The notes beneath the pieces were generated by a model, which was given only the letters and a program-made list of their open reading frames with translations, was not told the DNA's origin and did not search any database. Source: Taiwanofungus camphoratus (taxonomy: Eukaryota; Basidiomycota; Agaricomycetes; Polyporales; Taiwanofungaceae). From it: a stretch of DNA of 64,000 nucleotides. The position numbers and the translations under genes were made by a program. The DNA is taken from positions 1,484,231-1,548,230 of the forward strand of contig CP021231.1 in the NCBI GenBank assembly GCA_003999685.1, given 5' to 3'. Positions 10,854 to 64,000 of this stretch are shown here, in pieces; the stretch's first letter is position 1; every line of letters starts with the position of its first letter.

Positions 10854-10867
10854 GACTGGACCAAGAC
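10854..10867 (+). repeat. Left target-site duplication of the LINE
   Basis: The 14-mer GACTGGACCAAGAC occurs here and again directly after the A-rich tail at 17576-17589. It fixes both ends of the insertion. Confidence 0.9.
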
Positions 10868-10911
10868 TGAACCAGTACCACCACCATCTCGATTTAGCGC
10901 TCGTGCCCAGC

Positions 10912-13900
10912 ATGTCTAAATCCCATCGTTTCCTTCCCAATTCCCCCCATACTGGTGCCCCTATAGCCGCTGTTGGTCTTAGGACTGATGGTGCACCCAC
11001 CTCGTCGAGTGCGATGTCGGTGCATGGCGGCTGCCCTGCTCATCGCACTCAAGCTGACTCGGATCAACCGAGATCTCGTCCATTGGACACAACTTTGAAC
11101 TCACCCTCTCATGGGGAGAGTTCCACTTCGAGTTCCTCTCTCTCGAGAGGTCCTCTCTTTGAATCGATGGACATAGTGCCAGACGATTCACAAAGACGTG
11201 GAAGTTGCTCAATCCCCTCTGGGGGAGGGGGCGACGACCACATTAGCGCTGGAAGCAGCCTTGCTGTATCCATGCCCTTTGCCCATGATGGTAGTGCATG
11301 GCACACCGGAATGGGCTCAATATCATTAACCCGTTATGGGAGTAATGGACAACCGTGTGAACCGGATTCTTCCGACGGTGCTTCGGCCCCACCGTTTGGA
11401 ACTCCGCCGGCCTCACAACATAATGAACGGCCCGATTCCCCCATGGAGGTGGAAGCGGACCCCTCCCGTATGCCCAGCCCAACGGTTGACAGCGACAATC
11501 TGAGAGACGAGCCTACGAGGCATGCACTCACATGCATAAGTGCGAATGTTCAGAAATCTGCGGAGAATACGAGCATTCTACTTGAGAGACATAGGGACGC
11601 TGATATTATCTGCGTCCAAGAGATATTCTGGGGCCGCATCAAGGATGTGGCCTCTGCTAAGTCACGAGATGGGGAGGCGTATGAGAATACGTCTGCCCAT
11701 GCCTCGTTCAAGTGCCTCGGGGCATCAAAAGATTCCCGAGTCACAGTATATGTCAACAAATGGTGGGCTTCGGCCTCTCCGCAAGTTGTCACCCACAGTG
11801 TCTCTCATAAGGATTGCCTTATGGTAGCGCTCAAGCTTCCGTCTGGAGACTTCAATGTCCTGAACGTGTACAATGACAGCACCACCTTTGATGCTGTCAG
11901 ATATTTGGAAACACGTGTACACGCGCTTCCACCCATTGCGTGTATGTGCGGGGATTTCAATGTCTGCCACCCATTGTGGGATGCACGAGCTGTGGGATCT
12001 AGAGTGCGGCCTCCGCACTACGCTGATTCCAATCGCCTTATCGAGTTGGCCCAGGCCGAACTTGATTTGGTCTTGATGAATGCCCAGGACGGCCCAGTCA
12101 CTTGGCGTTCCCACAATATCGCTCTCACGCCTGGAGTCATTGACTTGGTGTGGATCGACCCAGTGTACTATGAAGGCCAAGACCTTCATGTACTCATGTC
12201 ACATTGCCACAATAGTGACCACGCGGTCCTGCGGTGGGAGATGCCAATTGAAGTTGAGCCAGAACTGGTGCGGGGTATTCCTCGTACCGGCGACGTGGCC
12301 CAACATTTCGTGACGGCAATGGCGAAACTATTTGCCGATTACCCTACACACTTCAGCAGCGCCCAAGGCGTTGAAAGAATGGGGGACCGCCTAGAGCGAG
12401 ACCTCCAACGACTATGGATGAAATTTTCGGCAGTAAAACGACCATCCAAACGTTCAAAGTCGTGGTGGGATGCTGCATGCTCCCGTGCGGCCACTAAGCT
12501 GGTGAACACCCAGCACCGCCTTAGTGCGGCGTCTGGGCAGTATCGCTACATACGTCATCAGTTGGGACCTGGCGCTCAGGCCACTGCAGACGCATATGAT
12601 GTTGTCGCCAAACTTCGGTCCGAACGGCATAAACAACGGGCAACACTTCACCTTGCCACGAAGCGGGCGAAGCGCGCACATTTTGATCGGATCATGGATG
12701 AATCCAATCCCCAATTAATCTCGGACTTTGTTGCATGGACAAAGCCGAGACGACAAGAGGCCACTATTCAGCTGCGGCAAGCTGATGGTGCGCCAGTCCA
12801 AAGTGCGGTTGATCTCAGTCGTGCTTTTCAAGCTCAGTTCACGCCTGCCAACCCACGGCCGGTGGATCTGTCATTTGTAGATGAAATTCCTCAACGAGAG
12901 GAATTGACTCTACCGGTGATGAGTCCCGTAGCCTCCTGGGCCTCGAATCGCGATTTTAGGAGCTTTCTAATCCCCCAACCGACCACTCTAAGACTCTCCT
13001 ACAGCCTACGACAGGAGGGATAGGTTCCTATAATATTTCTAACGCCTCCTTTCCTTCCTAAACCCTTCTAACACCCTACGAAGTCTTGCGAAGTCACACG
13101 AGGTGCTACGAGACTTCGAATGCTAGACGCGAAGTCCCTAACTCCTGCTAAGTCCACTATCGGACACTGCTGGTCCTCCCATACTGTTCCATTGGATCTA
13201 GGTCCTATCTATTACATCACTCATCCCGGGCTTAGCTAAGAAGTCTTAGCTAAGTCTCTCCTAGCTCTTGTGATTGCAGCTACCTCCGATAGGCTCCAAA
13301 ACGGTCCGAAGTTCCGGACGTTGGACTTAGGAAGCCTTGTGCACCCCCATGGGTCTCGATCCTATGCCATAAGGTCATCCTAGGGCGTACCCATATGACC
13401 CTCCACCCAGTTAGGACACCTCTTGCCCCGATTAGGCCAAGTCCCGCTGCTAAGAACTTCATGCGCTCTTAGCCCACTAAGATAGGTGATCACGGCGCAT
13501 GGCTGCTCTCGGATAGTCATCCCGCCCTCATGAATGAACTTGGTCACCTTTCTACCGTACGTAGTTCCCCTGTTTCAGTTCCTAATTAGTTCCTATCCTC
13601 CTCGTGTTCACTTCGGAGTCCATGCGCTTTAGTACACATTTCGGACTCGTAAGGATCACTTCGCGCAAGAATAGTTCACCTCACGCTCCCCTATTTAGTC
13701 AGAGGTAGTTTACTATGTAAGAGAGAGACCCCTCCGTGCACGCTTCTCTCTTTGGAATACCAGTTCCCCTGTAGCTCCGATCTCAGGAAAGCGCTGCGAG
13801 TACAACCTTAGGAACGGTCCCAAGGTCCCTAAGTCTCCACCCCAGCTCTGTTTCAGTACCTTTGAACTACGTCTACGCTCGCGATATATCTACGAACCAC

Positions 13901-16861
13901 GTCTACGCTTCCCGAACTACGCACTACGATCCATGAAGTCGCCGTAACTTCGTGCCCTTCAGTACCTCTTATAGCACCTATCCGGTGGGCCTCCGCCTTA
14001 GTTATACCCTTAGGCTCACGTTGCGTCATCCCTACGTCCTACGAATAACCCTACGACTCCCCCATAGCCTTCATTACAGGCTATAGTACATCTCTCTACG
14101 CCCTCGAACTCTCCGACCCACACCTCGAAGTCATCAGACACTTCAGAGCTTCCAGCAACCTCGTTCCCTCATTCCTATTCCAAGTATTAGCTCTCTGAAC
14201 CATCCGACCTCTCCTACAAGTCTCCTACGCTAGCCAAACCTCGCCCACCTCGCTCTAACAAACCTCTAAACCTTACGCCCTTTAGCTAACTCTAGCTAAA
14301 AGGACTTCGCAGCATCTACGAAGTCAGCTCGTGCGACTTAGCTAAAACTTCGAAGGACTTCGCAGAATCTCGAAGAACTTCGCGTACTTCGGAGGGCCTC
14401 GCAAGGCCTTAGAGATAGTATAGCACTTAGGAACAAGATCCTGTTGTGCAGGACCCTTGACCCCTTACTCCCCTACTTACAAAAACAAGACATACAGGTT
14501 TCCCGGTATCATACAGGTTGTAGCTCCTACCCTCACACCCTCACAGTTATCACACTACCCCACAGCCACGTTACAGAGCACTCCCTAGGTACCTGGGTCC
14601 CCTAGGTCGTATCACCGGATATTAGTGAGTTTGAGATTCGTGAGAATCTCAAATCCACTAGCAATACGTCCGCACCCGGTCCCGATCACGTGAACTGGAT
14701 GTGGATTAAATGGATGGTGGACCGGATCGAGCGCTCTGAGGAGGGCACCGAGACTGATCTCGGTATACACGTGCGGCAGTGGCTGCGCACATACTATAAC
14801 GCTTGCCTCGATTTCGAGGTCTATCCGAGCGTCTTCAAGTGGTCTGTTACAGTGGTTTTACCCAAACCGAACAAACTGGACTATACGCTAGCGAAGGCCT
14901 ACAGGCCTATCTGCTTGCTGAATTGTTTTGGCAAATTGTTCGAGAAGATCATTGCCAAACGAATGCAGTGGGATGCCCAGAAATGGGGAATCCTACACCC
15001 ATGCCAGTTTGGTGGGGCTATGCAGCATAGCACCACTGACGCTGGCATTCAACTAGTGCACAATGTCAAAGAGGCATGGGCGCGCAACCTTATCCCATCG
15101 GTGCTGCTGCTCGATGTGTCACAATTTTACCCGTCCATCAATCATGATGCGCTGGTAGGAATCATGCGAAAGCAGGGCTTCAATAGCAAGCTCTGTAATT
15201 TCATGGCAAATTACTTGATCAGGCGAAAAACCCGATTCCTGTTCAATGGTACCTTGACCGATCCATCTGACTTTGATGTCGGAGTTGGTCAAGGATCGAG
15301 TTTATCCCCGATTCTATCTGGGGTTTACATTGCACCGGTCATACACAAATGGGTGCCAGTCCATTTGGTACAACCGGGCCGAACCGGGACTCAGTTCTAT
15401 GTGGACGATGGTCTCATCATGGCGGCTTCGCCAAAGGCTGTTGATGACAGCCCGCAAGCCCTTGTATTAAAGAACAACGCCATCCTGGCGGATGTCTTCC
15501 ACAATCTCGTAGGCGATCTGAACCGGTTAGGTTTAGGAGTTGAAGGACACAAGTTGGAGCTGATGCACTTCTGAAAGCGCCAGAAGGGGTATTCGACTTC
15601 CCGACCCCTTGGTCCGGATCTAACCATCCGAACTGATGGACATGACGTCACTTTGCGAGCAAAGGACACGATGAGATATCTTGGGTTCTTTTTAGACCCC
15701 AAGCTTAGCTTCCATGCACACGTGCAGTTCTACGCTAACAAGGCAACCAGCACGTGCAATGCACTTCGCATGCTCGGTAATTCGGCACGCGGATTCCATC
15801 CCATCAACAAACGGCGGCTCTATATAGCGCATGTCGTTCCGTTGATGCTATACGGCGCTCAACTGTGGTGGAATCCACAGTGGAAGGGCCTCAAATGGGC
15901 TGTAAAAGAACTGCAGACCGCCCAGTCGAGAGCAGCTAGGTGGATCACCGGCTGCTTTAAGACCACACCGATCGGGGCGATGGAGATGTTGGGTGGGTTG
16001 GTCCCCATCTGCATCCAGGTCGACCGATACATGGAAAAAGCTGCACTTCGAGCGCGGCGAGTTCATGAAGGGCATCCAATGAGGGCCGCTCTTCCACCTT
16101 ATTGGGCGACCAACGTCACCAATATTACTGCGCCATGGCCGCTTAATTCGCGCCGTGGCAAAAAACAGGCTGTCACCCCCATGACGTTCATAGATCGCAT
16201 CGGGCGGCAGTCATCAGAAGACTTTGCACCACTCCATCTGGAGGCGCGGCCCGGTGATTGGGTCGTGGATCGGTACATTGATCGCTTCGAGCGGGTGTTC
16301 TTGGACGGAAAGAGCCCAAACAAACGCTCTCCTGAATTCGCTGACTGGTTGGAGTTCACCTGGTGGCCGGAATTCCGGCGCCAGCTGGCCCAGCCAGAAG
16401 GGCGAATGTTGTTTACTGATGGGTCGTATGCAAATGCGCCCACAGTGAGATCTGGTAGCGCGTGGCTCGTCATTGATGGGGAAGATCACGTTGCCCATGG
16501 AAAGTTCGGGGCCGGCAAGGTCCAGAGCTTCGATGCGGAGATGCTGGCATTGGCACGCGGGCTGTGGGAAGCGGTCTGTGATGTCCCTGCCCACATCACC
16601 ACCCTCATAGTCTGTTCTGATAATCAATCGGCACTCGACCGAATATTCAAGCCGGAAGTCGGGCCGTCGCAGATGGCGGCGGTCATGGCTTCTCAACACG
16701 TCCGAGTGTTCCTCGATGCAGACGAACGCCGACGCATCGTCCTTTTTTGGGTTCCATCCCATAAAGGCATTTTTCAGAACGAGTTCGTCGATGAACTCGC
16801 AAAGAAAGCATTTCGACTGTCCATTCTGGATCAGGACGAAGCACCAACAGGGTCCTCGTGA
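10912..16861 (+). pseudogene. LINE polyprotein gene, interrupted (endonuclease, reverse transcriptase, RNase H)
   Basis: The frame runs 10912-12916, is split by an insert, and resumes exactly in phase at 14619-16861, for about 1415 codons. Residues 1-200 are Ser/Pro-rich with no known domain. Residues about 206-440 are an exonuclease-endonuclease-phosphatase domain: SANVQ, VQEIFWG with the metal Glu, GDFNVCHPLWD, VIDLVW, and SDHAV with the catalytic Asp-His. The RT follows from about residue 690: APGPDHV, ILHPCQFGG, LLLDVSQFYPSI (motif A Asp), GVGQGSSLSPILS (motif B), FYVDDGL (motif C, near residue 929). RNase H lies near residues 1263-1400: LFTDGSY, SFDAEMLAL, VCSDNQSAL, WVPSHKGIFQNEFVDELAK. 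One TGA (15572-15574) interrupts the frame after ELMHF; the frame on both sides is the same, so this is a point nonsense change, possibly CGA to TGA. Confidence 0.9.
12917..14614. mobile_element. Nested 1.7-kb solo-LTR-like insertion in the LINE
   Basis: 1698 bp with no long open frame sit inside the LINE gene. The ends are TGAT...ATCA (inverted), and the host sequence CCGG is present on both sides (12913-12916 and 14615-14618). Removing the insert plus one CCGG restores the LINE reading frame as ELTLP-DISEFEI. TG...CA ends with a 4-bp target duplication are typical of a solo LTR left by LTR-retrotransposon recombination. The interior is peculiar, with many repeats of CGAAGT/ACTTCG and TAGCTAAG-like words. 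No primer-binding site or coding trace is visible. A nonautonomous element of another kind remains possible. Confidence 0.75.
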
Positions 16862-51763: not shown

Positions 51764-52168
51764 GGAGGTGGAGCGAGTCTGCCGAAGGCAGACGAGTGTA
51801 GAAAGAGATGAGAATAAAGGTGAATGGCAAGGGTAAATAGGAGTCACTATTGCTAGTGACTGTGCTATTTCGTCTAGAGACTCATCAGTACTCTTGCTGT
51901 ACTTTATAACCTGGTTCAGTTTAGGGCAAGCCTAACTCTGAGTCAGCGGCCGAAGGCCGCTGACTGATTCAATTTGACCAACCATGCCATAAGGTAGTAT
52001 GACTCAGAGTCACAATGAGTCATTATTCTCATTGCTTACTATGCAGGTTCAACAAATAGACTGGGCTAGACCACCTAGCCTTACCAATTCTGCCACATGA
52101 TAGGGTCATGTGTTAAAGTAAGAGTCATATATTATGACTAAAGATAAGAATGTCCGATGCCATCGGTT
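51764..52168 (-). repeat. A unit copy A1, diverged and truncated
   Basis: About 405 bp holding the 3' part of an A unit, including its hammerhead. It is the most diverged A copy, consistent with being the oldest and most centromere-proximal. It joins A2 without a clear telomeric tract. Confidence 0.8.
51827..51897 (-). ncRNA. Hammerhead ribozyme A1
   Basis: Minus strand: CUGAUGA core, stem II GUC/GAC around UCUA, GAAA core, stem III AUAG/CUAU extended by AGUCACUA/UAGUGACU with a GCAA tetraloop, cleavable U, then stem I UACCCUUGC against GCAAGAGUA (one A-C mismatch). Differs from other A copies by paired changes in stems II and III. Confidence 0.82.
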
Positions 52169-53018
52169 AAGAGGTGGTGCGAGACCGCCGATAGGCGGGC
52201 GAGCGTAGAAAGAGATGAGGAAAATAGAGAAAATAAGAGTAAACAATGGTATCTATCGCTAGATACCTACTTGTTTCGCTAAAGAGCTCATCAGTACTCT
52301 CGTCGTACTTATAACTGAGGTTCAGGGTCGTCAGATGACTAGCCCTGAGTCATCGGCCGGAGGCCGATGACTGATTCAATTTGATCAACCAGGCCATGAG
52401 GTAGGACGGACACCAATCACATGGTGTCATTTATCTTATCTCTTATCATGCGGGGTCGACAACGGACCAGGCTAGAACGCCCTAGCCTTACCAATACCGC
52501 CACCTGATCAGAGATAACAATCAGATGTGAAGATAAGGAGTCATTTAAGATGACTCAAAGATAAGAGATCCCTTATCATCGGTTAGGATGACAGGGTGGG
52601 AATAGAACAATCTGGGCCGGTGCCAGCCGAGTCACGTGACCGGTCCGACTTACGGGCGCCTAGATAAGGGCAGCGTGGACCACTGTGGAAGCATCATGTC
52701 CGGCACAAACCTGAGGATCCCTAGGGACACTCTCACCGAGCCATGCGGGGTGGGGGCGGGATATCCACTAGGACCGCGTCCAGCAAGTTGCCGCACCGTG
52801 CCATAGCATGTTACACCTCACAGATCACCGGCTCATGGACTAACTCAGCAGAGGGGCGCTGGTGACCATAGCTAGGTGGTGCCCAGGCCAGTCCAGCCTT
52901 GTGGCCCGACCGATCCGTGCCAGGATGCTGGTCACATGGCCGGCCCTCTCGGGCAAGTCACGTGACGAGCGTCTATTCTCTAATCTACCAAATGGAGAAG
53001 GCGCGCAAGTGCCTTCAG
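52169..53018 (-). repeat. A unit copy A2, full length
   Basis: About 850 bp, ending at the right with the AAGGCGC...GTGCCTT hairpin directly before TTAGG repeats. Noncoding. Diverged from A3/A4 by scattered substitutions. Confidence 0.88.
52232..52304 (-). ncRNA. Hammerhead ribozyme A2
   Basis: CUGAUGA, stem II GCU/AGC, GAAA, stem III ACAA/UUGU plus GGUAUCUA/UAGAUACC with a GCGA loop, then U and stem I. Its apical stem III pair U-A/A-U is C-G/G-C-changed in A3-A5, a compensatory change. Stem I has one mismatch in its outer half. Confidence 0.88.
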
Positions 53019-53033
53019 TTAGGTTAGGTTAGG
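53019..53033 (+). repeat. Internal telomeric tract (TTAGG)3
   Basis: Three TTAGG repeats between A2 and B1. Confidence 0.9.
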
Positions 53034-53220
53034 AGGTATAGATATCAACACTACTGGAAGGCTGCAAGTGCAGGGTACGGAAAGGGAGGCTTAGTGGAAG
53101 CTAGTACTAATTAGCCCGATATTGCTATCGGACGGCTAATTTCGACTAAGTCTCATCAGAGCACTAGCTGTCGTATATAACCTATATATATGCTGTCTGG
53201 ATTAGGACCCCCTAATCCAG
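53034..53220 (-). repeat. B unit copy B1, 3' part only
   Basis: The left 190 bp of a B unit, with its hammerhead; sequence then departs into an unrelated block at about 53200-53220. Confidence 0.8.
53100..53168 (-). ncRNA. Hammerhead ribozyme B1
   Basis: Stem I GCUAGUGCU/AGUACUAGC (one G-U), CUGAUGA, stem II GAC-UUA-GUC, GAAA, stem III UUAGC/GCUAA plus CCGAUA/UAUCGG capped by a GCAA loop (GCGA in other B copies, both GNRA). Confidence 0.92.
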
Positions 53221-54088
53221 TCAGGTCCGGGAACAAGCTTTCCCATCCCTTTTTGACAATTCTGAGTAGACAGAATCGAAGAGCATCATCAATAACCTAC
53301 TCGGAAACTCCCTAGTTGTTCAATTATCTCACTCCATTGCCTGTTCCCGGGCATGGACATTGTTGGCCTCTGAAAAAACTTGTGAGGTCCGGGAACAAGC
53401 TTTACTAAGGTCAAATTGTTTGAGAACAAAGGCAGAGAGCTTCAGAATGCTTCAGAGCAGGTGTCTGTGCAAGCAGATTATAAAAAAGTTGAATATTGAG
53501 CCCTTGACACTGTGATCACCAGTGACAGAGCAGACATTGAGCAAGTGATGTTCTGGTGAGAAATTGATCATTCTGAGAGCACAGATGGAAAGACCATGAT
53601 CAATAAGCCATGGGGAGGTCAACAGGTGTGACATTATCTCAGTCCTTTGCTTGTTCCCGGACCTGAACATTATGTGACTACAGTAAATCTTGTGGTGTCC
53701 GGGAACAAGCTTTAAAATAGGATATTTGCCCGGGAACAAAGGCACAGGGCTTCAGAATGTGTCAAAGCAGGTCTGTACACAAGCTGAACATGAACAGTGA
53801 AATATTCAGCCCTTGACACTGTGATTACCTGTTTTTTGACAGTGAGTACAAAAAATATATTTGCAGTGAGCTGAGAGCTAGACTAAATAGCTGAGGATAA
53901 TCTGCATACTTGTAAAGCCTCAGATCACTCAACATTGGTGAACTTTAATGGCTATATACTGTGGTAGAGACAATCTAAAATTGTAAAAGTAGACAACTTG
54001 TGATGTCCGGGAACAGGCTTTAAAATGAGATATTTGACCGGGAACAAGGGCAGCAGACTAGCCAAAGAGTCAAAGCAGGATTGAGCAC
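53221..54088. repeat. Tandem-repeat block of about 300 bp period with inverted GTCCGGGAACAAG words
   Basis: The word GTCCGGGAACA(A/G)GCTTT starts at about 53225, 53397, 53697 and 54005, and CCTTGACACTGTGAT recurs about 308 bp apart. Its inverted form CTTGTTCCCGGAC at 53650-53662 pairs perfectly with 53697-53709 across a 34-nt spacer. No coding potential. This block is unlike the A and B units, has a lower GC content, and may be an older subtelomeric satellite or a foreign element end. Confidence 0.7.
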
Positions 54089-54119
54089 TTAGGGTTAGGT
54101 TAGGTTAGGTTAGGTTAGG
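54089..54119 (+). repeat. Internal telomeric tract
   Basis: Six telomeric repeats, TTAGGG followed by TTAGG units. Confidence 0.9.
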
Positions 54120-54979
54120 AGGTCTATGTATCAACACTACAAGGGCTGCGAGTGCAGGGCAGGAGGGGAGGCTTAGAGGAAGCTAGTACTAATTAGCCCG
54201 ATATCGCTATCGGACGGCTAATTTCGACTAAGTCTCATCAGAGCACTAGCGTCGCTTATAACCAAGTTCAACATAAGTCATGCTTATGGTTGAGTCATGA
54301 CCCGGGGGCCGGTGACTAAGTCAGTTTGACCATACCAGGGCAAAGGGTTGCAGGTGGGAGCGAATCACGTCTCTCCCTCCTATCCTAATCAGTCAGCGAT
54401 GAGCAATCATCATTGTCTAGATTCGCCTAGACACCATTACTGATCAGATGTCAGAGTCATCTGATTAAGATTAGAATCCGGACCGCAAGCCTAGGCTCAA
54501 GATCCGAGATAAGAGATAGGAAATCCGGGCCGAAGGTTAATCCGGGCCGGATATAGATAGGAACAACATAGCCGGTGCCGCGCCGATCATGTGACCGGGC
54601 CGCTTTCCGGGCGTCTACTAAGGGCAGCGTGGACCACTGAGGAAGCATCATGTCATGGCACAAACCTGGGAATCCCCGGGAGCACCCTGTCCGAGCCATA
54701 CGGGGCGGGGGAAGGATACTCATCAGGACCGCGTCCAGCAAGTTGCCGCACCGTGCTCTAGCATGTTACAACCCACAGATCACCAGATCATGGACTAACA
54801 CAGCAGAGGGGCGCTGGGGGCCATAGTAGTTAACGCGCGCTCCGCTAGCATGCGGGGACGGCGCGCACCGGGCCGCAGTGAAGGGCCGGTCCGTACTAAG
54901 TGCCGAACATATCACGTGACACGTAAGGCGCCTATCTATTTTAGGCAACCCTAAGCGCAGGACTGGGAGAGTCCGGCGG
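54120..54979 (-). repeat. B unit copy B2, full length
   Basis: About 860 bp from AGGTCTATG to the right-end hairpin GGACT-GGGAG-AGTCC followed by GGCGG and TTAGG. Shares with A the core around GGACCACTGAGGAAGCATCA. A 94-codon minus-strand frame (54457-54741) is open here but probably not a gene. Confidence 0.9.
54182..54250 (-). ncRNA. Hammerhead ribozyme B2
   Basis: Complete type-I fold: stem I GCUAGUGCU/AGUACUAGC, CUGAUGA, GAC-UUA-GUC, GAAA, stem III UUAGC/GCUAA and CCGAUA/UAUCGG with GCGA loop. Predicted cleavage lies between plus-strand positions 54191 and 54190. Confidence 0.93.
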
Positions 54980-54999
54980 TTAGGTTAGGTTAGGTTAGG
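54980..54999 (+). repeat. Internal telomeric tract
   Basis: Four TTAGG repeats between B2 and B3. Confidence 0.9.
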
Positions 55000-55192
55000 A
55001 GGTGGAGCGAGCAGCGCCGCAGGTGCTGCGAGTGCGATACGGGCTTGAAAGGAGGACTTAGAGGAAGCTAGTACTAATTAGCTCGCCTATGGAGGGGCGG
55101 GCAGCTAATTTCGACTAAGTCTCATCAGAGCACTAGCTGTCGATTTTAACCGAGTTCAACCAAAGTCATGCTTATGGTTGAGTCATGGCCCG
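55000..55192 (-). repeat. B unit copy B3, truncated
   Basis: Only the left 190 bp of a B unit (hammerhead included), then directly telomeric repeats at TCATGGCCCGG. A typical 5'-truncated reverse transcript. Its hammerhead has a different stem-III extension, so it is a B subfamily. Confidence 0.9.
55067..55137 (-). ncRNA. Hammerhead ribozyme B3, variant stem III
   Basis: Same stems I and II and same cores as other B copies. Stem III is UUAGCU/AGCUAA followed by CGCC/GGCG and a larger loop, replacing CCGAUA/UAUCGG. Pairing is kept although the bases differ. Confidence 0.88.
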
Positions 55193-55249
55193 GTTAGTTA
55201 GGTTAGGTTAGGGTTAGGGGTTAGTTAGGTTAGGTTAGGTTAGGTTAGG
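55193..55249 (+). repeat. Internal telomeric tract with irregular units
   Basis: TTAGG repeats with interspersed TTAG, TTAGGG and TTAGGGG variants, as produced by imprecise telomere addition. Confidence 0.9.
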
Positions 55250-56102
55250 AGGTGGAGCGAGCAACGACGAAGGAGTTGCGAGCGTTGAGAAGACTTAATG
55301 GAAGCTAGTACTAATTAGCCCGATATCGCTATCGGACGGCTAATTTCGACTAAGTCTCATCAGAGCACTAGCGTCGCTTATAACCAAGTTCAACCAAAGT
55401 CACGCTTATGGTTGAGTCATGGCCCGGGGGCCGATGACTAAATCAGTTTGACCGTACCAGGGCAAAGGGTTGCAAGTGGGAGCGAATCACGTCTCTCCCT
55501 CCTATCCTAATCAATCAGCGCCAAGCAAAAGACATTGTCTAGGTTCGCCTAGACACCATTACTGATCAGATGTCAGAGTCATCTGATTAAGATTAGAATC
55601 CAGACCTCAAGCCAAGGCTCAAGATCCGAGATAAGAGATAGGAAGTCCGGGCCGGAGGTTAATCCGGGCCGGACATAGATAGGAACAACATAGCCGGTGC
55701 CGCACCGATCATGTGACCGGGCCGCTTTTCCGGGCGTCTACTAAGGGCAGCGTGGACCACTGAGGAAGCATCATGTCATGGCACAAACCTGGGAATCCCC
55801 GTGAGCACCCTATCCGAGCCATGCGGGGCGGGGGAAGGATACTCAATAGGACCGCGTCCAGCAAGTTGCCGCACCGTGCTCTAGCATGTTACAACCCACA
55901 GATCACCAGATCATGGACTAACACAGCAGAGGGGCGCTGGGGACCATAGTAGTTAACGCGCGCTCCGCTAGCATGCGGGAACGGCGCGCACCGGGCCGCA
56001 CTGAAGGGCCGGTCCGTACTAAGTGCCGAACATATCATGTGACACGTAAGGCGCCTATCTATTTTTAGGCAACCCTAAGCGCAGGACTGGGAAAGTCCGG
56101 CG
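55250..56102 (-). repeat. B unit copy B4, full length
   Basis: About 853 bp, bounded on both sides by TTAGG tracts. Has small differences from B2/B5/B6, including an extra T near 55728 that breaks the 94-codon frame seen in the other copies. Confidence 0.92.
55304..55372 (-). ncRNA. Hammerhead ribozyme B4
   Basis: Identical in core and helices to B2. Flanked on the cleavage-product side by the GCAAC...GTTGC terminal hairpin of the unit. Confidence 0.93.
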
Positions 56103-56133
56103 GTTAGGTTAGGTTAGGTTAGGTTAGGTTAGG
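56103..56133 (+). repeat. Internal telomeric tract
   Basis: Six TTAGG repeats. Confidence 0.9.
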
Positions 56134-56166
56134 AGGTGGAGCGAGACCGCCGATAGGCGGGCGAGG
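56134..56166 (-). repeat. 33-bp A-unit stub between telomeric tracts
   Basis: Contains only the extreme left end of an A unit, AGGTGGAGCGAG plus the CCGCC-GATA-GGCGG hairpin, then telomeric repeats resume. It is the shortest 5'-truncated copy and shows that additions start at this end. Confidence 0.92.
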
Positions 56167-56192
56167 GTTAGGTTAGGTTAGGTTAGGTTAGG
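56167..56192 (+). repeat. Internal telomeric tract
   Basis: Five TTAGG repeats after the A stub. Confidence 0.9.
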
Positions 56193-57052
56193 AGGTCTAT
56201 GTATCAACACTACAAGGGCTGCGAGTGCAGGGCAGGAAGGAGGCTTAGAGGAAGCTAGTACTAATTAGCCCGATATCGCTATCGGACGGCTAATTTCGAC
56301 TAAGTCTCATCAGAGCACTAGCGTCGCTTATAACCAAGTTCAACATAAGTCACGCTTATGGTTGAGTCATGACCCGGGGGCCGGTGACTAAATCAGTTTG
56401 ACCGTACCAGGGCAAAGGGTTGCAGGTGGGAGCGAATCACGTCTCTCCCTCCTATCCTAATCAGTCAGCGATGAGCAAACATCATTGTCTAGATTCGCCT
56501 AGACACCATTACTGATCAGATGTCAGAGTCATCTGATTAAGATTAGAATCCGGACCGCAAGCCTAGGCTCAAGATCCGAGATAAGAGATAGGAAGTCCGG
56601 GCCGAGGGTTAATCCGGGCCGGATATAGATAGGAACAACATAGCCGGTGCCGCGCCGATCATGTGACCGGGTCGCTTTCCGGGCGTCTACTAAGGGCAGC
56701 GTGGACCACTGAGGAAGCATCATGTCATGGCACAAACCTGGGAATCCCCGGGAGCACCCTATCCGAGCCATGCGGGGCGGGGGAAGGATACTCATCAGGA
56801 CCGCGTCCAGCAAGTTGCCGCACCGTGCTCTAGCATGTTACAACCCACAGATCACCAGATCATGGACTAACACAGCAGAGGGGCGCTGGGGACCATAGTA
56901 GTTATCGCGCGCTCCGCTAGCATGCGGGGACGGCGCGTACCGGACCGCAATGAAGGGCCGGTCCGTACTAAGTGCCGAACATATCACGTGACACGTAAGG
57001 CGCCTATCTATTTTAAGGCAACCCTAAGCGCAGGACTGGATAAGTCCGGCGG
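56193..57052 (-). repeat. B unit copy B5, full length
   Basis: About 860 bp, very close to B2 (same AGGTCTATG left end). Right-end hairpin GGACT-GGATA-AGTCC. Confidence 0.92.
56254..56322 (-). ncRNA. Hammerhead ribozyme B5
   Basis: Identical to B2 in all helices and cores. Confidence 0.93.
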
Positions 57053-57067
57053 TTAGGTTAGGTTAGG
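57053..57067 (+). repeat. Internal telomeric tract (TTAGG)3
   Basis: Three TTAGG repeats between B5 and the left pseudo-LTR A3. Confidence 0.9.
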
Positions 57068-57917
57068 AGGTGGAGCGAGACCGCCGATAGGCGGGCGAGC
57101 GTAGTAAGAGATGAGAGAGATAGAGAAGACAAGAGTAAACAATAGTATCTGTCGCCAGATACCAACTTGTTTCGCTAAGAGCTCATCAGTACTCTCGTCG
57201 TACTTTTAACCGATGGTTCAGGGTCATCAGATGATTGACCCTGAGTCATCGGCCAAGGGCCGATGACTGATTCAATTTGACCAACCAGGCCATGAGGTAG
57301 TAATGAGCTCCAATCACATCAGAGCTATTTCTCTTATCTCTTATCAGCGGGCCGACAAAAGGCAGGCTAGAACGCCCTAGCCTTTACCAATACCGCCACC
57401 TGATCAGAGATAACAATCAGATGTAAAGATAAGGAGTCATTTAGGATGACTCATAGATAAGAGATCCCTTATCATCGGTTGGGATGACAAGGGTGGGAAT
57501 AGAACAATCCGGGCCGGTGCCGACCGAGTCACATGACCGGTCTGACTTCCGGGCGCCTAGATAAGGGCAGCGTGGACCACTGAGGAAGCATCATGTCACG
57601 GCACAAACCTGAGGATCCCTAGGAACACCCTCACCGAGCCATGCGGGGCGGGGGCGGGATATTCACTAGGACCGCGTCCGGCAAGTTGCCGCACCGTGCC
57701 ATAGCATGTTACACCTCACAGATCACCGGATCATGGACTAACACAGCAGAGGGGCGCTGGTGACCATAACTAGGTGGTGCCCAGGCCAGTCCAGCCTCGC
57801 GGCTCAACCGGTCCGTGCCTGGATGCTGATCACATGGCCGGCCCTCTCGGGCGAGTCACGTGACGAGCGTCTTATTTCCCAAGACTACCAAATGGAGAAG
57901 GCGCGGTAGCGCCTTCA
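57068..57917 (-). repeat. A unit copy A3, proximal pseudo-LTR of the Penelope-like element
   Basis: 850 bp, apparently identical to 61746-62595. Ends on the right with the perfect hairpin AAGGCGC-GGTA-GCGCCTT and on the left with CCGCC-GATA-GGCGG. Confidence 0.93.
57128..57199 (-). ncRNA. Hammerhead ribozyme A3
   Basis: Stem I GACGAGAGUA/UACUCUUGUC (10 bp, one G-U), CUGAUGA, stem II GCU-CUU-AGC, GAAA, stem III ACAA/UUGU plus GUAUCUG/CAGAUAC with a GCGA loop. Predicted cleavage between plus-strand positions 57138 and 57137. Confidence 0.95.
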
Positions 57918-57999
57918 GTTAGGTTAGGTTAGGTTAGGATTTAGCGTTAGGTTAGGTTAGGTTAGGTTAGGTTAGGTTAGGTTAGGGTTAGGTTAGGTC
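57918..57999 (+). repeat. Internal telomeric tract at the Penelope-like element 3' junction
   Basis: About 80 bp of TTAGG repeats with a short interruption (ATTTAGCG near 57939-57948) between the left pseudo-LTR and the internal region. Confidence 0.9.
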
Positions 58000-58086
58000 T
58001 GGTTTGAACAGACAACCCTAAGTGCGAGTAAACGCAAAAGGTAGTTACACCAATAACCTTAAGCTAAACAAATCGAATCAACCGAT
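58000..58086 (-). other. 3' untranslated part of the Penelope-like element
   Basis: Short stretch after the reverse-transcriptase stop codon. Contains an ACAACCCTAAGTGCG segment resembling the right end of B units (CAACCCTAAGCGCAGG), a hint that B units derive from a related element. Confidence 0.6.
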
Positions 58087-61000
58087 TTATATGTCCATTT
58101 CCAAAAGTACATCATCTGTACTTTGGGCATTGATAACACTTCTGCGCCACTTGCTTGCTAAGTCAGCGAAATTGGTTTCCCTTTTACGCGACACAAGCCA
58201 GCGCTTGTCTAAGAATCCGAGTTGGGAAAGGTCAGGGACCTTCTCCGCTTCGATGAATCCGTTGGGTTTCTTCAGGTACCGCCCAGTCCAAACCCAGCCC
58301 TCGTCCGCGCGGTTGTCATGGACAACTGCCACCGGTTTCGAGATTTGATCGGACCGCCTGGCTTCAGCGGCGGCGAGTTCTGCTGCTGCTTCCGCAGCCG
58401 CCGTTTCGCGCGACAGCTTGCGCTGGGCTACTCGGGCGGGATCCCACCACTCCTCAAGCGTGGTCTGAACTGTGCTGGATAGGGTCGCATCCTTAGGACC
58501 CCCAGACGAATACTCAAAGATCGGAGCGGCCGAGTTTTCCCAACTCGCCGAAAAGAAAGACTTAAAGAAAGATAAGTCCTTCACCCACGATTCTGTAACA
58601 CGTGTCATTAATTCATGAACCTCGAACTGATCCCATGAGGGGTTGAACTTCGACTTAATCGCAAGTACGCCCTCAACTTGGTCTGCATCTTCGGTCGAAG
58701 ATTTTGGTTTTCCAAGACGTTCTTTCCAGCGTACCGCTTTATGCGAGTCAAGCCAGGAAGTAACCAGAGCAGGGGGATAGCCACGGCCGACATACAGGTC
58801 GACAAGCCCATGAAGGGCATCTAGGTAATGTTCCAACTTAGAACTTAGCGTAGCTAAACGGCTCATCTCCCCAATGAACGTGCCTTTTTTCACGTCCTTT
58901 GGGTGGTGAGATACCCATGGAATTCGTTCGTGATGGTTAAGTGCTTTCCGATATGGCTTATGTTCCACCCGGTTAGAAACGGGGTCAATATAAATAAGCA
59001 TGTCTAAGAATGGCGTCGCCCATTCAGACACTTCCCATGTTATAGTGCAGCCATCATAAGATATACGACTTTGGCAGGCTTCTAGAGCTTCTGCCGCACT
59101 ACCTGCTTCAACTATGGCAAATACATCATCGATATATCGGCCATAATATAAAAACGGTGGAGTAACCTGTCCACCGGGCCATACTTGATTTTCAAAATGG
59201 CATCCGTAGAGATTAGCTAAGTCAGGCGAACACGCCACACCCATAGCTAATCCTCGTTTTTGAAAGTAAGTACGACCGTTGAAATCGACTATTAAATCGT
59301 AATTGGCCGTTTGCATACACCTGATAAATAGTGCATTATAAAACTGGGGCTGGTCCATGGACTGACTACCCAGAGGATGTCTTGTGTACAGTTTGGACAC
59401 AATGCCAACACAATCTCTGAGTGGTACATTAGGGTAGAAAGCGACAACGTCGCCAGCCACTAACCAATACTTTTTCCATTTTAACGTTTTAACCTTTGCT
59501 AACTGGATCGCAAGATGTTTTGATCCATGTATAATGAAGGGTTCAGCCTCGATAATAGGTTTCAACAGTTTAGATACAACTTTAGCCGCGGGCCCTTGAG
59601 CGCATGAGTGACATGGAACAATAGGTCGCATCTTTACTGGGGATTTATGGATTTTTGGAATCCCGTAAAAGATAGGCACCTTTGGTTCCTCTAACTCGCT
59701 TTCGGGACATTTAGACCGGAGGAATTTGGCTAATTGGAGTGTCTGATCGTTAGGCAAAGCCCCTTCGACCCAATCGCTTAACTCCTTTACCCGCTTTGTA
59801 ACTTTTTCTAAATACATCTGTCGCTGACCGGGATTAATTTCCTGATAGTCAGCCGTATTTGACAGAAGATTCATGCAACCAGTAATGAACCATTCCCTTG
59901 TGACTACTGCCGCACCAAGGTTCTTGTCCGTTTGGAGAACGAGGTAGTTATGCTCGTTCAACCAGAGGCGAACGCGGTCCAGGTCTACAAGCCGATTAGG
60001 GTGGCTTCTAGCTTTCAAACCGGGTACGACACTACGTATGTAATCAGTGACGTATGTTTGCCCGCGTTTAAGACCGTTTTCGATATATTGTGTGGCCCTA
60101 GGGGCGGACGAGTCCCGCTTAGCCCTAAGGTCGTAGTCTGGATCATATGGTGGTTGACTTATACCTTGCCGTTCAAGTTGAATCTGTTTGACTTTAAAAT
60201 ACACTCGCCAGCGTATTCGTTCGCAGAAATCATCGAACGCCGTTTGAATGAGTTCCCCGCTCGGGGAGGAATACAACATATATTTCAAACCGCAAGATAT
60301 GTGTATGCTAATGTCCGGCGGTAAAAAAACATCCTCGCCACAGTGCACCCAGCTTCTGAACCTCGCCGCTTCGACTAAAGCAACCGGAGCGAAATAAAGG
60401 AGGGTGCGAGCTGCAACAGGCAAGGGTAACATTAGAATACTGTCTGGATAAGACGACGGCTGGGAGAAGCGGAGTCGCGAGCGAATAACTGACCGGATTA
60501 TTTCGCTCTCCCTTTGCCTTTCCGATCTTTGGTCTTCTTCTGCTTCTTCGCAGAGGAAGCGGCCTGCTGCTGCTTGGCCTTGCGCTGCGGAGGTTTGGGA
60601 GGACGTCCTCCCGTACTCATGCGCACCGATCGTTTTGGCGCCTTTGCCTTTGCTCCCTAAAATACGTGATAGAGCGGCGCCTGGTAAGCTTTTTGGAACA
60701 GAACCATGTACAAAACTTACCGCGTTCTTTGAGCTGCCCTCGCCTTTGAGACGACGATCAACCGCATCATCGATCAGCTTTTTCAAAGCTGCAGGGTTCT
60801 CGGTGGCGTCACCCATCTCGACCTCCGCTGCAGCCTTGACGGCAGACTTTGCTTGCGCTCGAGCCGCGGCTTGTGCCAATTGTGATTCACGGATATTAAC
60901 TACCCGGAAGGCAAAGCGTGGGAGCACGGCGACGAATCGCTTGTACTCAGACTCGAGGACAGGGTCATTGGTCCACGTATCTAGGCGTTGACCGCCATCG

Positions 61001-61590
61001 ATAGTTTCCCTCCAAACAGGAACGCGACTAGACTGGCTAATGCGCGCCCATTGTTCGTCAACCACTGTCCGCATTTTCTCCAACATTGCTGTCGGGTCCA
61101 ATGCGCGATCAAAGAACGCGAGCTCTGCTCGCTTTTGGGCGATGGCCAAGTCAAGAGCCTTCCGACGGAAGGATTGGAACTCGGTTATCAGAGCTGCGGG
61201 TTCCGCCGGCGACGTCTCGAGCCAGAGTTTTGAGCTCTGGAAGACGGGTTCGCTGAGCCCCTGTAACTGGTGGGGGAGCGAACCGTTAGCTTTGTGCGAC
61301 TCAAGGTCACCCAATTGCTTCTGCAAAGAAACAGAACGTTCCTTCGCTTCCGCAACGCTAACCAGCACCGGACGGAGCACCTCTCGATACACGAGAGGTA
61401 TAGCTGAGAAGACTTGGTCAATGGTCTCTGCGTGAAAAATGGCTCGGAACTCATCGGCAACAGTCTCAAGCGATGCCGCCCCGATAGCGTACGATAAGCT
61501 CGCGGGGGCAAGATTCCGGGCAATTGCAGACCTAAGTGAGGCAGACCCGGGACCGACGGAAGAAGAACGGGGCGTGGAAGATGGAGCCAT
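58087..61590 (-). CDS. Penelope-like reverse transcriptase
   Basis: Uninterrupted 1167-codon frame from ATG 61590. Residues 1-550 form the N-terminal region with an Ala/Lys-rich part and no known domain. The RT core runs from about 550 to 880: TDKNLGAAV (near 555), FYGIPKIHKSPVKMRPIV (about 646), GDVVAFYPNVPL with the motif A Asp 714, RGLAMGVACSPDLANLYG (motif B, about 778), GRYIDDVFAIV with catalytic Asp-Asp 821-822, and TPFLDMLIY. The Penelope-type thumb follows (HHERIPWVSHHPKDVKKGTF...MSRLATLSSKLEHYLDALHG). The C-terminus (about 960-1167) contains no GIY-YIG endonuclease, only WKER/Ala-rich and charged sequence. Known relatives are telomere-attached and thought to prime on the chromosome's 3' overhang. 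All catalytic residues are present, so the enzyme may be active. An alternative frame rich in lysine lies inside at 60498-60620. Confidence 0.94.
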   Translation of the reverse strand: MAPSSTPRSSSVGPGSASLRSAIARNLAPASLSYAIGAASLETVADEFRAIFHAETIDQVFSAIPLVYREVLRPVLVSVAEAKERSVSLQKQLGDLESHKANGSLPHQLQGLSEPVFQSSKLWLETSPAEPAALITEFQSFRRKALDLAIAQKRAELAFFDRALDPTAMLEKMRTVVDEQWARISQSSRVPVWRETIDGGQRLDTWTNDPVLESEYKRFVAVLPRFAFRVVNIRESQLAQAAARAQAKSAVKAAAEVEMGDATENPAALKKLIDDAVDRRLKGEGSSKNAVSFVHGSVPKSLPGAALSRILGSKGKGAKTIGAHEYGRTSSQTSAAQGQAAAGRFLCEEAEEDQRSERQRESEIIRSVIRSRLRFSQPSSYPDSILMLPLPVAARTLLYFAPVALVEAARFRSWVHCGEDVFLPPDISIHISCGLKYMLYSSPSGELIQTAFDDFCERIRWRVYFKVKQIQLERQGISQPPYDPDYDLRAKRDSSAPRATQYIENGLKRGQTYVTDYIRSVVPGLKARSHPNRLVDLDRVRLWLNEHNYLVLQTDKNLGAAVVTREWFITGCMNLLSNTADYQEINPGQRQMYLEKVTKRVKELSDWVEGALPNDQTLQLAKFLRSKCPESELEEPKVPIFYGIPKIHKSPVKMRPIVPCHSCAQGPAAKVVSKLLKPIIEAEPFIIHGSKHLAIQLAKVKTLKWKKYWLVAGDVVAFYPNVPLRDCVGIVSKLYTRHPLGSQSMDQPQFYNALFIRCMQTANYDLIVDFNGRTYFQKRGLAMGVACSPDLANLYGCHFENQVWPGGQVTPPFLYYGRYIDDVFAIVEAGSAAEALEACQSRISYDGCTITWEVSEWATPFLDMLIYIDPVSNRVEHKPYRKALNHHERIPWVSHHPKDVKKGTFIGEMSRLATLSSKLEHYLDALHGLVDLYVGRGYPPALVTSWLDSHKAVRWKERLGKPKSSTEDADQVEGVLAIKSKFNPSWDQFEVHELMTRVTESWVKDLSFFKSFFSASWENSAAPIFEYSSGGPKDATLSSTVQTTLEEWWDPARVAQRKLSRETAAAEAAAELAAAEARRSDQISKPVAVVHDNRADEGWVWTGRYLKKPNGFIEAEKVPDLSQLGFLDKRWLVSRKRETNFADLASKWRRSVINAQSTDDVLLEMDI

Positions 61591-61732
61591 GCGAACGGCG
61601 GCGGACGATAGTAGATCGACTCAGACTTAGGCTTGTAGAATCGATTGCAGTCGTCGCAGAAGATACCGACAGTCGTGCACCAGGTGAGGGGCTTGCGATG
61701 GCGGATGTAGAGAGACAGCTTGGCGGCGGTGT
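61591..61732 (-). other. 5' leader of the reverse-transcriptase gene
   Basis: 142 bp between the start codon and the telomeric repeats of the distal pseudo-LTR junction. No TATA-like box; the promoter may lie in the pseudo-LTR. Confidence 0.5.
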
Positions 61733-61745
61733 TGGTTAGGTTAGG
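61733..61745 (+). repeat. Internal telomeric tract at the Penelope-like element 5' junction
   Basis: GTTAGGTTAGG between the leader and the distal A unit. Confidence 0.85.
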
Positions 61746-62595
61746 AGGTGGAGCGAGACCGCCGATAGGCGGGCGAGCGTAGTAAGAGATGAGAGAGATA
61801 GAGAAGACAAGAGTAAACAATAGTATCTGTCGCCAGATACCAACTTGTTTCGCTAAGAGCTCATCAGTACTCTCGTCGTACTTTTAACCGATGGTTCAGG
61901 GTCATCAGATGATTGACCCTGAGTCATCGGCCAAGGGCCGATGACTGATTCAATTTGACCAACCAGGCCATGAGGTAGTAATGAGCTCCAATCACATCAG
62001 AGCTATTTCTCTTATCTCTTATCAGCGGGCCGACAAAAGGCAGGCTAGAACGCCCTAGCCTTTACCAATACCGCCACCTGATCAGAGATAACAATCAGAT
62101 GTAAAGATAAGGAGTCATTTAGGATGACTCATAGATAAGAGATCCCTTATCATCGGTTGGGATGACAAGGGTGGGAATAGAACAATCCGGGCCGGTGCCG
62201 ACCGAGTCACATGACCGGTCTGACTTCCGGGCGCCTAGATAAGGGCAGCGTGGACCACTGAGGAAGCATCATGTCACGGCACAAACCTGAGGATCCCTAG
62301 GAACACCCTCACCGAGCCATGCGGGGCGGGGGCGGGATATTCACTAGGACCGCGTCCGGCAAGTTGCCGCACCGTGCCATAGCATGTTACACCTCACAGA
62401 TCACCGGATCATGGACTAACACAGCAGAGGGGCGCTGGTGACCATAACTAGGTGGTGCCCAGGCCAGTCCAGCCTCGCGGCTCAACCGGTCCGTGCCTGG
62501 ATGCTGATCACATGGCCGGCCCTCTCGGGCGAGTCACGTGACGAGCGTCTTATTTCCCAAGACTACCAAATGGAGAAGGCGCGGTAGCGCCTTCA
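61746..62595 (-). repeat. A unit copy A4, distal pseudo-LTR of the Penelope-like element
   Basis: Direct repeat of 57068-57917 at a constant offset of 4678 bp with no difference noticed by eye. Confidence 0.93.
61806..61877 (-). ncRNA. Hammerhead ribozyme A4
   Basis: Same sequence as ribozyme A3. Cleavage here and at A3 would release a 4678-nt RNA containing the reverse-transcriptase gene, the telomeric tract and the pseudo-LTR. Confidence 0.95.
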
Positions 62596-62606
62596 GTTAG
62601 GTTAGG
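62596..62606 (+). repeat. Internal telomeric tract (TTAGG)2
   Basis: Two TTAGG repeats between A4 and B6. Confidence 0.85.
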
Positions 62607-63459
62607 AGGTGGAGCGAGCAACGACGAAGGAGTTGCGAGCGTTGAGAAGACTTAATGGAAGCTAGTACTAATTAGCCCGATATCGCTATCGGACGGCTAA
62701 TTTCGACTAAGTCTCATCAGAGCACTAGCGTCGCTTATAACCAAGTTCAACATAAGTCACGCTTATGGTTGAGTCATGACCCGGGGGCCGGTGACTAAGT
62801 CAGTTTGACCGTACCAGGGCAAAGGGTTGCAAGTGGGAGCGAATCACGTCTCTCCCTCCTATCCTAATCAGTCAGCGATAAGCAATCATCATTGTCTAGA
62901 TTCGCCTAGACACCATTACTGATCAGATGTCAGAGTCATCTGATTAAGATTAGAATCTGGACCTTAAGCCTGGGCTCAAGATCCGAGATAAGAGATAGGA
63001 AGTCCGGGCCGAAGGTTAGTCCAGGCCGGACATAGATAGGAACAACATAGCCGGTGCCGCGCCGATCATGTGACCGGGCCGCTTTCCGGGCGTCTACTAA
63101 GGGCAGCGTGGACCACTGAGGAAGCATCATGTCATGGCACAAACCTGGGAATCCCCGTGAACACCCTGTCCGAGCCATGCGGGGCGGGGGAAGGATATTC
63201 AATAGGACCGCGTCCAGCAAGTTGCCGCACCGTGCTCTAGCATGTTACAACCCACAGATCACCAGATCATGGACTAACACAGCAGAGGGGCGCTGGGGAC
63301 CATAGTAGTTATCGCGCGCTCCGCTAGCATGCGGGAACGGCGCGCACCGGGCCGCAATGAAGGGCCGGTCCGTACTAAGTGCCGAACATATCATGTGACA
63401 CGTAAGGCGCCTATCTATTTTTAGGCAACCCTAAGCGCAGGACTGGGAAAGTCCGGCGG
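62607..63459 (-). repeat. B unit copy B6, full length
   Basis: About 853 bp, left end like B4 (AGGTGGAGCGAGCAACG), right-end hairpin GGACT-GGGAA-AGTCC then GGCGG. Confidence 0.92.
62661..62729 (-). ncRNA. Hammerhead ribozyme B6
   Basis: Identical to B2/B4/B5 in all helices and cores. Confidence 0.93.
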
Positions 63460-63510
63460 TTAGGTTAGGTTAGGTTAGGTTTAGGTTAGGTTAGGTTAGG
63501 TTAGGTTAGG
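63460..63510 (+). repeat. Internal telomeric tract
   Basis: About ten TTAGG repeats with one TTTAGG variant. Confidence 0.92.
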
Positions 63511-63857
63511 AGGTGGAGCGAGACCGCCGATAGGCGGGCGAGCGTAGTAAGAGATGAGAAAAATAGAGAAGACAAGAGTAAACAAAGGTATCTGTCGCCA
63601 GATACCAACTTGTTTCGCTAAGGAGCTCATCAGTACTCTCGTCGTACTTTTAACCGATGGTTCAGGGTCATCAGATGATTGACCCTGAGTCATCGGCCGG
63701 AGGCCGATGACTGATTCTATTTGACCAACCAGGCCATGAGGTAGTGGTGAGCTCCAATCACATTAGAGCTATTTCTCTTATCTCTTATCAGCGGGCCGAC
63801 AAAAGGCAGGCTAGAACGCCCTAGCCTTTACCAATACCGCCACCTGATCAGAGATAA
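63511..63857 (-). repeat. A unit copy A5, terminal and 5' truncated
   Basis: Left 347 bp of an A unit including its hammerhead. The unit breaks off after CTGATCAGAGATAA and terminal telomeric repeats follow at once. As the outermost unit it would be the most recent addition. Confidence 0.93.
63571..63643 (-). ncRNA. Hammerhead ribozyme A5
   Basis: As A3 but stem II loop CCUU and an 8-bp apical stem III GGUAUCUG/CAGAUACC with GCGA loop (7 bp in A3). Differences lie in loops or add a pair. Confidence 0.93.
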
Positions 63858-64000
63858 GGTTAGGGTTAGGTTAGTTAGGTTAGGTTAGGTTAGGTTAGGT
63901 TAGGTTAGGTTAGGTTAGGTTAGGTTAGGTTAGGTTAGGTTAGGTTAGGTTAGGTTAGGTTAGGTTAGGTTAGGTTAGGTTAGGTTAGGTTAGGTTAGGT
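63858..64000 (+). repeat. Terminal telomeric tract (TTAGG)n
   Basis: 143 bp of TTAGG, with one TTAGGG and one TTAG unit at its start, running to the end of the window. G-rich strand 3' end points right, as expected at a right chromosome end. Confidence 0.95.

Follow-up and report, generated by a model that had tools for sequence, protein, structure and literature searches.

Hammerhead ribozymes in telomeric Penelope-like elements are already known, and the element described here, which lies at the right end of contig C12 (CP021231.1) of the basidiomycete Taiwanofungus camphoratus, adds to that kind. The window, that is, the whole stretch of DNA that was analysed, comprises 64 kb of this contig end in a genome of 33.2 Mb and 15 contigs. 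In fungi, the Coprina elements were reportedly presented by Gladyshev and Arkhipova in 2007 as endonuclease-deficient, telomeric Penelope-like elements, and fungal Penelope-like hammerheads are said, in work by Cervera and De la Pena from 2014, to be monomer-stable. The Terminons of rotifers combine an endonuclease-free reverse transcriptase and a telomeric location with a hammerhead on the 3' side, next to telomere repeats in reverse complement (PMC6431247). The hammerhead of the Anolis Penelope-like element cuts only with protein and is dispensable for insertion in vitro (PMC11167929), and circular RNA intermediates are described for known retrozymes (PMC7761336, PMC11722881). A review describes Penelope and Terminon hammerheads as lacking either helix III or contacts such as that of loop I with loop II, and calls their role a mystery (PMC7761336).

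The element of T. camphoratus resembles the Terminons in having no endonuclease domain, in its head-to-tail telomere arrays and telomere-capped 5' truncations, and in a hammerhead near the 3' end that is followed by reverse-complement telomere repeats (PMC6431247). However, Terminons extend up to 40 kb and carry accessory genes, whereas the present element measures 4.7 kb with one open frame, and it further differs in the tail of about 63-72 bases that separates the cut site from the telomere-complementary tract, in its TTAGG repeats and in its long stem III; the long helix III also sets it apart from the Penelope hammerheads as the review presents them (PMC7761336). With Poseidon PAc of Anolis carolinensis it shares tandem and partial-tandem copies, pseudo-long terminal repeats (pseudo-LTRs), a hammerhead at the junction of repeat and gene and, in the proposed cycle, a start of reverse transcription inside the RNA, downstream of the hammerhead; unlike it, PAc is depicted with a GIY-YIG endonuclease, a minimal hammerhead overlapping the gene start and no telomere targeting (PMC11167929). 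Hammerheads in flanking repeats are likewise found in retrozymes (PMC7761336, PMC11722881), but retrozymes are without a reverse transcriptase, whereas full elements here encode their own and are thus not non-autonomous. Among Rfam families, RF03152 (RAGATH-1-hammerhead) aligns with the core and the stem II stretch, and the extra 5' helix of that family is hardly matched. A literature search of limited coverage found no publications on this very element.

The best explanation overall is very likely that of an endonuclease-deficient, telomere-associated Penelope-like retrotransposon with selected hammerheads, and we hold with high confidence that the element itself is a telomeric Penelope-like element. 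It carries a real, selected hammerhead, for which cutting is predicted. Read in RNA sense, the element consists of a leader, the gene, a short 3' region, a telomere-like tract of 81 or 100 bases, a body of about 730 bases, the hammerhead, a tail measuring about 63-72 bases and, last, another telomere-like tract, with a total length of about 4.68 kb for type A and 4.74-4.78 kb for type B. The preliminary description had treated the B units as noncoding subtelomeric repeats; subtelomeric repeats they are, but the picture was incomplete, since the units are the flanking repeats (pseudo-LTRs) of a coding retrotransposon, present there as solo repeats starting in the internal tract or as shorter truncations. 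The parts of the element and its neighbours are as follows:

54120 to 54977, minus strand: solo B repeat starting at the internal tract
55000 to 55191, minus strand: 5'-truncated B' unit with a telomere-repeat cap
55250 to 56101, minus strand: solo B repeat
56134 to 56163, minus strand: tail-only A fragment with telomere tracts on either side
56193 to 57050, minus strand: solo B repeat
57068 to 57916, minus strand: A flanking repeat downstream of the gene, 672 bases identical to its partner
57917 to 57997, minus strand: internal telomere-like tract of 81 bases between gene and repeat body
58087 to 61590, minus strand: reverse transcriptase gene from its first ATG to the stop codon, in an open frame of 1177 residues (58087-61620; RVT_1; YIDD)
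61734 to 61745, minus strand: 12-base telomere-complementary tract at the border of tail and gene leader, the proposed priming site
61746 to 62594, minus strand: A flanking repeat on the upstream side of the gene, with body, hammerhead and tail, 672 bases identical to its partner
62607 to 63457, minus strand: solo B repeat
63511 to 63856, minus strand: outermost A unit, 5'-truncated, with a terminal-repeat cap
63857 to 64000, plus strand: terminal (TTAGG)n telomere array

This organisation recurs at other contig ends. In the loci read, a hammerhead of the same type as the element, a tail and a tract precede all 21 complete gene leaders, the tract having 12 bases in 20 cases and 13 in one, and 5'-cut genes are preceded by longer tracts of variable length. 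Behind one and the same hammerhead type, the stretch from cut site to tract occurs in several tail versions (e.g., 54120-54190, 62607-62669 and 61746-61815, minus strand). Two tail versions that were folded carry a short hairpin, possibly a protein-binding or priming signal. The reverse transcriptase is present in at least 39 copies (39 of 58 candidates were scored), all of them at contig ends; the copies listed fall into two groups, with identities to the query of about 99% and 81-82%, and 37 of the 39 retain a near-full-length open frame. RVT_1 is the sole Pfam match of the open frame at E values up to 1. Elsewhere in the genome, two exons matched the RNA-binding domain of telomerase, which was counted in favour of this explanation. 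A single pattern scan of bacterial and archaeal contigs gave 22 matches, none of them a relative of the element protein, and one such scan of viral contigs gave 0 matches. An AlphaFold model of residues 400-1000, built from one sequence, had a mean pLDDT of 35.5 and was left unused.

The six hammerheads named in the preliminary description are all present on the minus strand, and each folds as a complete type-I hammerhead with the elements that had been reported: stem I, CUGAUGA, stem II GAC-UUA-GUC, GAAA and a U as H17 before the stem I 3' strand. The three helices are present and helix I is open-ended, as type-I hammerheads require, and covariation backs this secondary structure. Stem I has 9-10 pairs including one G-U, and stem III begins with A15.1-U16.1. 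The GNRA cap attributed to stem III is found in five of the six copies (GCGA or GCAA) and is replaced by a different loop at 55066. That description had overlooked three A-type hammerheads and two older ones, all of them with differing stems, as well as the gene between the A units. The hammerheads of the window, identified by the descriptor and by model search, are the following:

51826 to 51898, minus strand: older hammerhead of a third version with one stem I mismatch, found by model search and missed by the strict descriptor
52232 to 52304, minus strand: older A-like hammerhead
53099 to 53169, minus strand: B type, H17 at 53109, GCAA cap
54181 to 54251, minus strand: B type, H17 at 54191
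55066 to 55138, minus strand: B' type, H17 at 55076, different stem III without GNRA cap
55303 to 55373, minus strand: B type, H17 at 55313
56253 to 56323, minus strand: B type, H17 at 56263
57128 to 57199, minus strand: A type, H17 at 57138, downstream of the gene in RNA sense
61806 to 61877, minus strand: A type, H17 at 61816, upstream of the gene in RNA sense
62660 to 62730, minus strand: B type, H17 at 62670
63571 to 63643, minus strand: A type, H17 at 63581, in the outermost 5'-truncated A unit

Beside the hammerhead at 53099, another subtelomeric repeat takes the place of the usual unit body: GTCCGGGAACAAGCTTT recurs there on the plus strand at 53225, 53387 and 53697 (region 53225-54040).

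The hammerhead fold is almost certainly under selection. A strict type-I descriptor, requiring at least 5 pairs in stem I, 3 in stem II and 4 in stem III, returned 10 matches in the window, each of them minus-strand and located beyond 52 kb towards the right end, whereas 200 dinucleotide shuffles of the window contained no match; a looser one gave 10 real matches and 1 in 60 shuffles. The scanned loci yielded 90 hammerhead copies that collapse to 19 distinct sequences, one more copy, cut by the end of locus L024, being excluded. CUGAUGA, GAAA, A15.1-U16.1 and U17 are kept in all 19. When the hammerhead structure is imposed on these versions, 98.3% of 418 cells are paired and both partners have changed in 16 of 22 pairs; the covariation score is 0.705, compared with a mean of 0.268 for shuffles and no more than 0.138 for slid partners. 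A model built from the 19 versions recovered 88 strong matches in 23 sources (266,436 bases), of which 87 are complete and one is cut by a locus end, besides 8 further rows at 13.8-13.9 bits that represent background; no decayed copy appeared in this unbiased search of the 23 sources. Moreover, stem I, core and stem II show no variation among the 48 B units (41 distinct sequences), in contrast to the body, where none of 448 windows is as constant, in a scan that required the core and part of stem I.

The core pattern matches 200 times in the genome and 0 times in the reversed control, and among the 100 of these 200 matches for which locations were listed, 98 are no further than 35 kb from a contig end and have their sense strand leading away from the telomere. 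The exact string of the B type occurs 126 times in the genome and that of the A type 23 times. The remaining two listed cores are chromosome-internal (C3:1924200-1924219 and C7:1874438-1874457), each with a pairable stem II, and may be a relic, an unrelated ribozyme or chance. TTAGG, a telomere repeat best known from insects, starts 13 of the 15 left contig ends; C4 starts within an element, and C15 begins without a visible repeat.

The flanking repeats provide information on the template that was copied. The pair test covered 15 of the 37 full-length genes, namely those of the 21 leader-preceded genes with both flanking repeats in the loci read, and intact hammerheads flank the gene on both sides. 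Over about 672 bases, seven of eight A pairs are identical and one has 2 differences, and the seven B pairs have 0, 0, 0, 1, 5, 9 and 51, so that 12 of the 15 elements show at most 2 differences between their own repeats. Six pairs are clearly mutual nearest neighbours, with 0 differences against 7, 7, 13, 19 and 20 to other units, and 1 against 13; five A pairs and one B pair tie with other units and are little informative. Permuting the partners gave sums as low in 24 of 40320 arrangements (A) and 4 of 5040 (B). Additionally, in three elements whose upstream stretch is longer, this stretch aligns to the 3' part of the same element with 1 mismatch in 1,657 bases, 0 in 1,251 and 0 in 1,354; the best other locus of the third has 8 mismatches in 1,359, and for the first two there are other loci that match with no mismatch. 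Judged from these alignments, both flanking repeats appear to be mostly renewed together, as would be expected from a circle or a one-unit concatemer, with gene conversion as a possible alternative. A self-tandem template, either a circular RNA or an uncut concatemer, was probably copied, since the flanking repeats are near-identical and the gene has a whole hammerhead on each side. The joint renewal of both flanking repeats is what is new here and the strongest point, and it makes the circle reading testable.

A linear concatemer has close to an even chance of being the correct account. In this explanation tandem copies would be transcribed into one long RNA, reverse transcription would start internally on uncut RNA, and the hammerhead would cut late or only free the messenger, the equal repeats deriving from tandem source copies or from gene conversion between neighbours. 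The authors of the Anolis study propose such a multi-copy RNA with an internal start and a mainly uncut substrate (PMC11167929), and the three unequal B pairs point in the same direction, as does segmental copying in the genome or its assembly: at the left end of C10 (about 1596-33671) the hammerhead positions recur at a period of 16,021 bases (1596/17617/33638, 6365/22386 and 12846/28867), reflecting either a large recent duplication or an assembly artefact. However, in several elements that carry private sequence the two repeats do not differ at all, although the nearest other unit differs at 7 to 20 positions, so that the linear model needs, for each of them, a private tandem source or a private conversion event, and it gives no reason for the retention of the hammerhead. 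A circle in place of a linear concatemer is put forward tentatively, with somewhat less than an even chance.

Returning to the telomeric Penelope-like retrotransposon with selected hammerheads, a cycle can be proposed in which RNA would be made in the sense leading away from the telomere, the G-rich 3' overhang of the chromosome would pair with the CCUAACCUAAC tract and prime reverse transcription, which would then pass through the tail, hammerhead, repeat body and gene, and telomere repeats would cap the product where copying ends. The hammerhead, kept by selection, would most likely trim multi-unit RNA to unit length, with cut ends re-joined into a circle or with cutting after priming, and it probably does cut in the cell. 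In the most specific version, the hammerhead would cut and re-join the RNA into a one-element circle and the reverse transcriptase, primed on the tract, would run more than one lap, which as a whole is rather unlikely. If this rolling-circle reading is true, the two identical flanking repeats per insertion would be explained, as would the retention of the hammerhead in copies that hardly ever end at the cut site. None of the scanned hammerheads ends at that site, 87 of 88 being complete and the remaining one cut by the locus end; 80 listed units, selected by an exact tail-end string, have a tail end within 200 bases, and in full-length copies the upstream hammerhead is whole. Judging by the genomic copies, the reverse-transcribed RNA mostly had no end at the cut site, and the presence of whole hammerheads argues that cutting would follow priming or that the ends would be re-joined.

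Tail-only copies were considered as a footprint of cutting in the cell. The search covered two tail types with exact ends, and 11 such copies remained after nested matches were collapsed. Two of them, at the right ends of C9 (1733610) and C13 (1458926), start at the predicted cut site with at most 1 base of ambiguity and are telomere-capped; they are independent, as their neighbours and tail types differ. A hand-made binomial for 2 of 11 at the site (2 of about 71 positions) gives about 0.04. The A-type search found no tail-only copy starting at the cut site, and the third match of the cut-site search is chromosome-internal with no telomere repeats around it. Because they are 2 of 11 and because CTAAG is common to the telomere repeat and to 5 of the 11 junctions, both cut-site copies included, these copies were not counted as support and give a weak hint only.

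Several results weigh against the retrotransposon with a selected, cutting hammerhead. The RVT_1 match (E 3.6e-6, 27.3 bits) does not reach the Pfam cut-off of 29.6, and a search of solved structures with the element protein found no match at E values up to 1, so that the assignment to Penelope is provisional, resting on organisation and literature. Regarding covariation, 16 both-side-changed pairs were also reached in 9 of 500 shuffles, further pair types (25) lie below the shuffled mean of 27.3, and most changes are carried by few lineages (A, B, B' and the oldest copy), so that independent events are fewer than cells. A hammerhead search with covariance models, which the preliminary description had proposed as a check, with background scores as the refuting outcome, came out near background for the public models: no Rfam family reached its gathering score in the whole window, and under lax settings over 52000-64000 the best hits, RAGATH-1-hammerhead with 24.9 bits (cut-off 56.3) at an E-value of 1.5 and Hammerhead_3 with 18.6 bits (cut-off 48.5) at an E-value of 7.1, are background by E-value; a single A copy scored 17.6 bits. 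Rfam scores were accordingly rejected as proof of a hammerhead, and their low level may stem from models without this stem architecture. In none of the 19 versions is the hammerhead the minimum-energy fold, above which it lies by 1.0 to 8.2 kcal/mol (1.0 in most A copies, 3.1 in the common B and up to 8.2 in a truncated copy); in common B copies a competing lower-energy helix hides CUGAU. Such folds might hold back cutting, within an energy model that leaves out the tertiary core. The A hammerheads are no more constant than the body, in which 158 of 492 windows of core size and 280 of 440 of whole size are as constant. Three B pairs of the 15 (5, 9 and 51 differences) are not mutual nearest. 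Finally, the predicted cut removes the tail together with the telomere-complementary tract, so that an RNA cut before priming could not start there.

Some of these observations bear on the explanation that the hammerhead serves as a fold only, exposing the telomere-complementary tract or binding the element protein with weak or absent cutting, which we consider unlikely. It is near the published view of Terminons, in which the fold exposes the adjoining telomeric stretch (PMC6431247), and it agrees with copies mostly made from RNA without an end at the cut site, with the competing folds that hide CUGAU in common B copies, and with the lack of an obvious loop-loop contact, as stem I has no internal loop across its 9-10 pairs and loop II has 3-4 bases in the 19 versions. 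However, all 19 versions keep the same catalytic residues although their stems differ, which argues against this explanation since a plain fold would not need these residues, and the Anolis hammerhead does cut with protein (PMC11167929). A chance or once-copied motif without function, spread by repeat amplification, is highly improbable: one sequence does make up 40 of the 90 copies and the Rfam scores are at background, but diverged versions carry compensating changes around an unchanged core, and 200 shuffles held no match.

Elsewhere in the window, open frames at 10777-16861 (plus strand) with endonuclease/exonuclease, reverse transcriptase and RNase H domains represent a non-LTR retrotransposon, and one frame at 1105-2829 (plus strand) encodes part of a PLP-dependent enzyme domain and, after it, an M20 peptidase domain. 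A gene with an NST1 domain, a fungal family, was also found, in line with a fungal host; a search for fungal U3 RNA gave no match, in the controls either.

Altogether, the many intact copies in this genome, with 37 near-full-length open genes and 200 core matches, make the unsettled role of these hammerheads testable, and the sequences place constraints on that role: the cut site lies within the template, hammerheads stand on both sides of the gene, and the flanking repeats appear to be usually renewed together. Besides, three diverged versions of the hammerhead, with compensating changes, occur together in this one genome, in an architecture missed by the public Rfam models.

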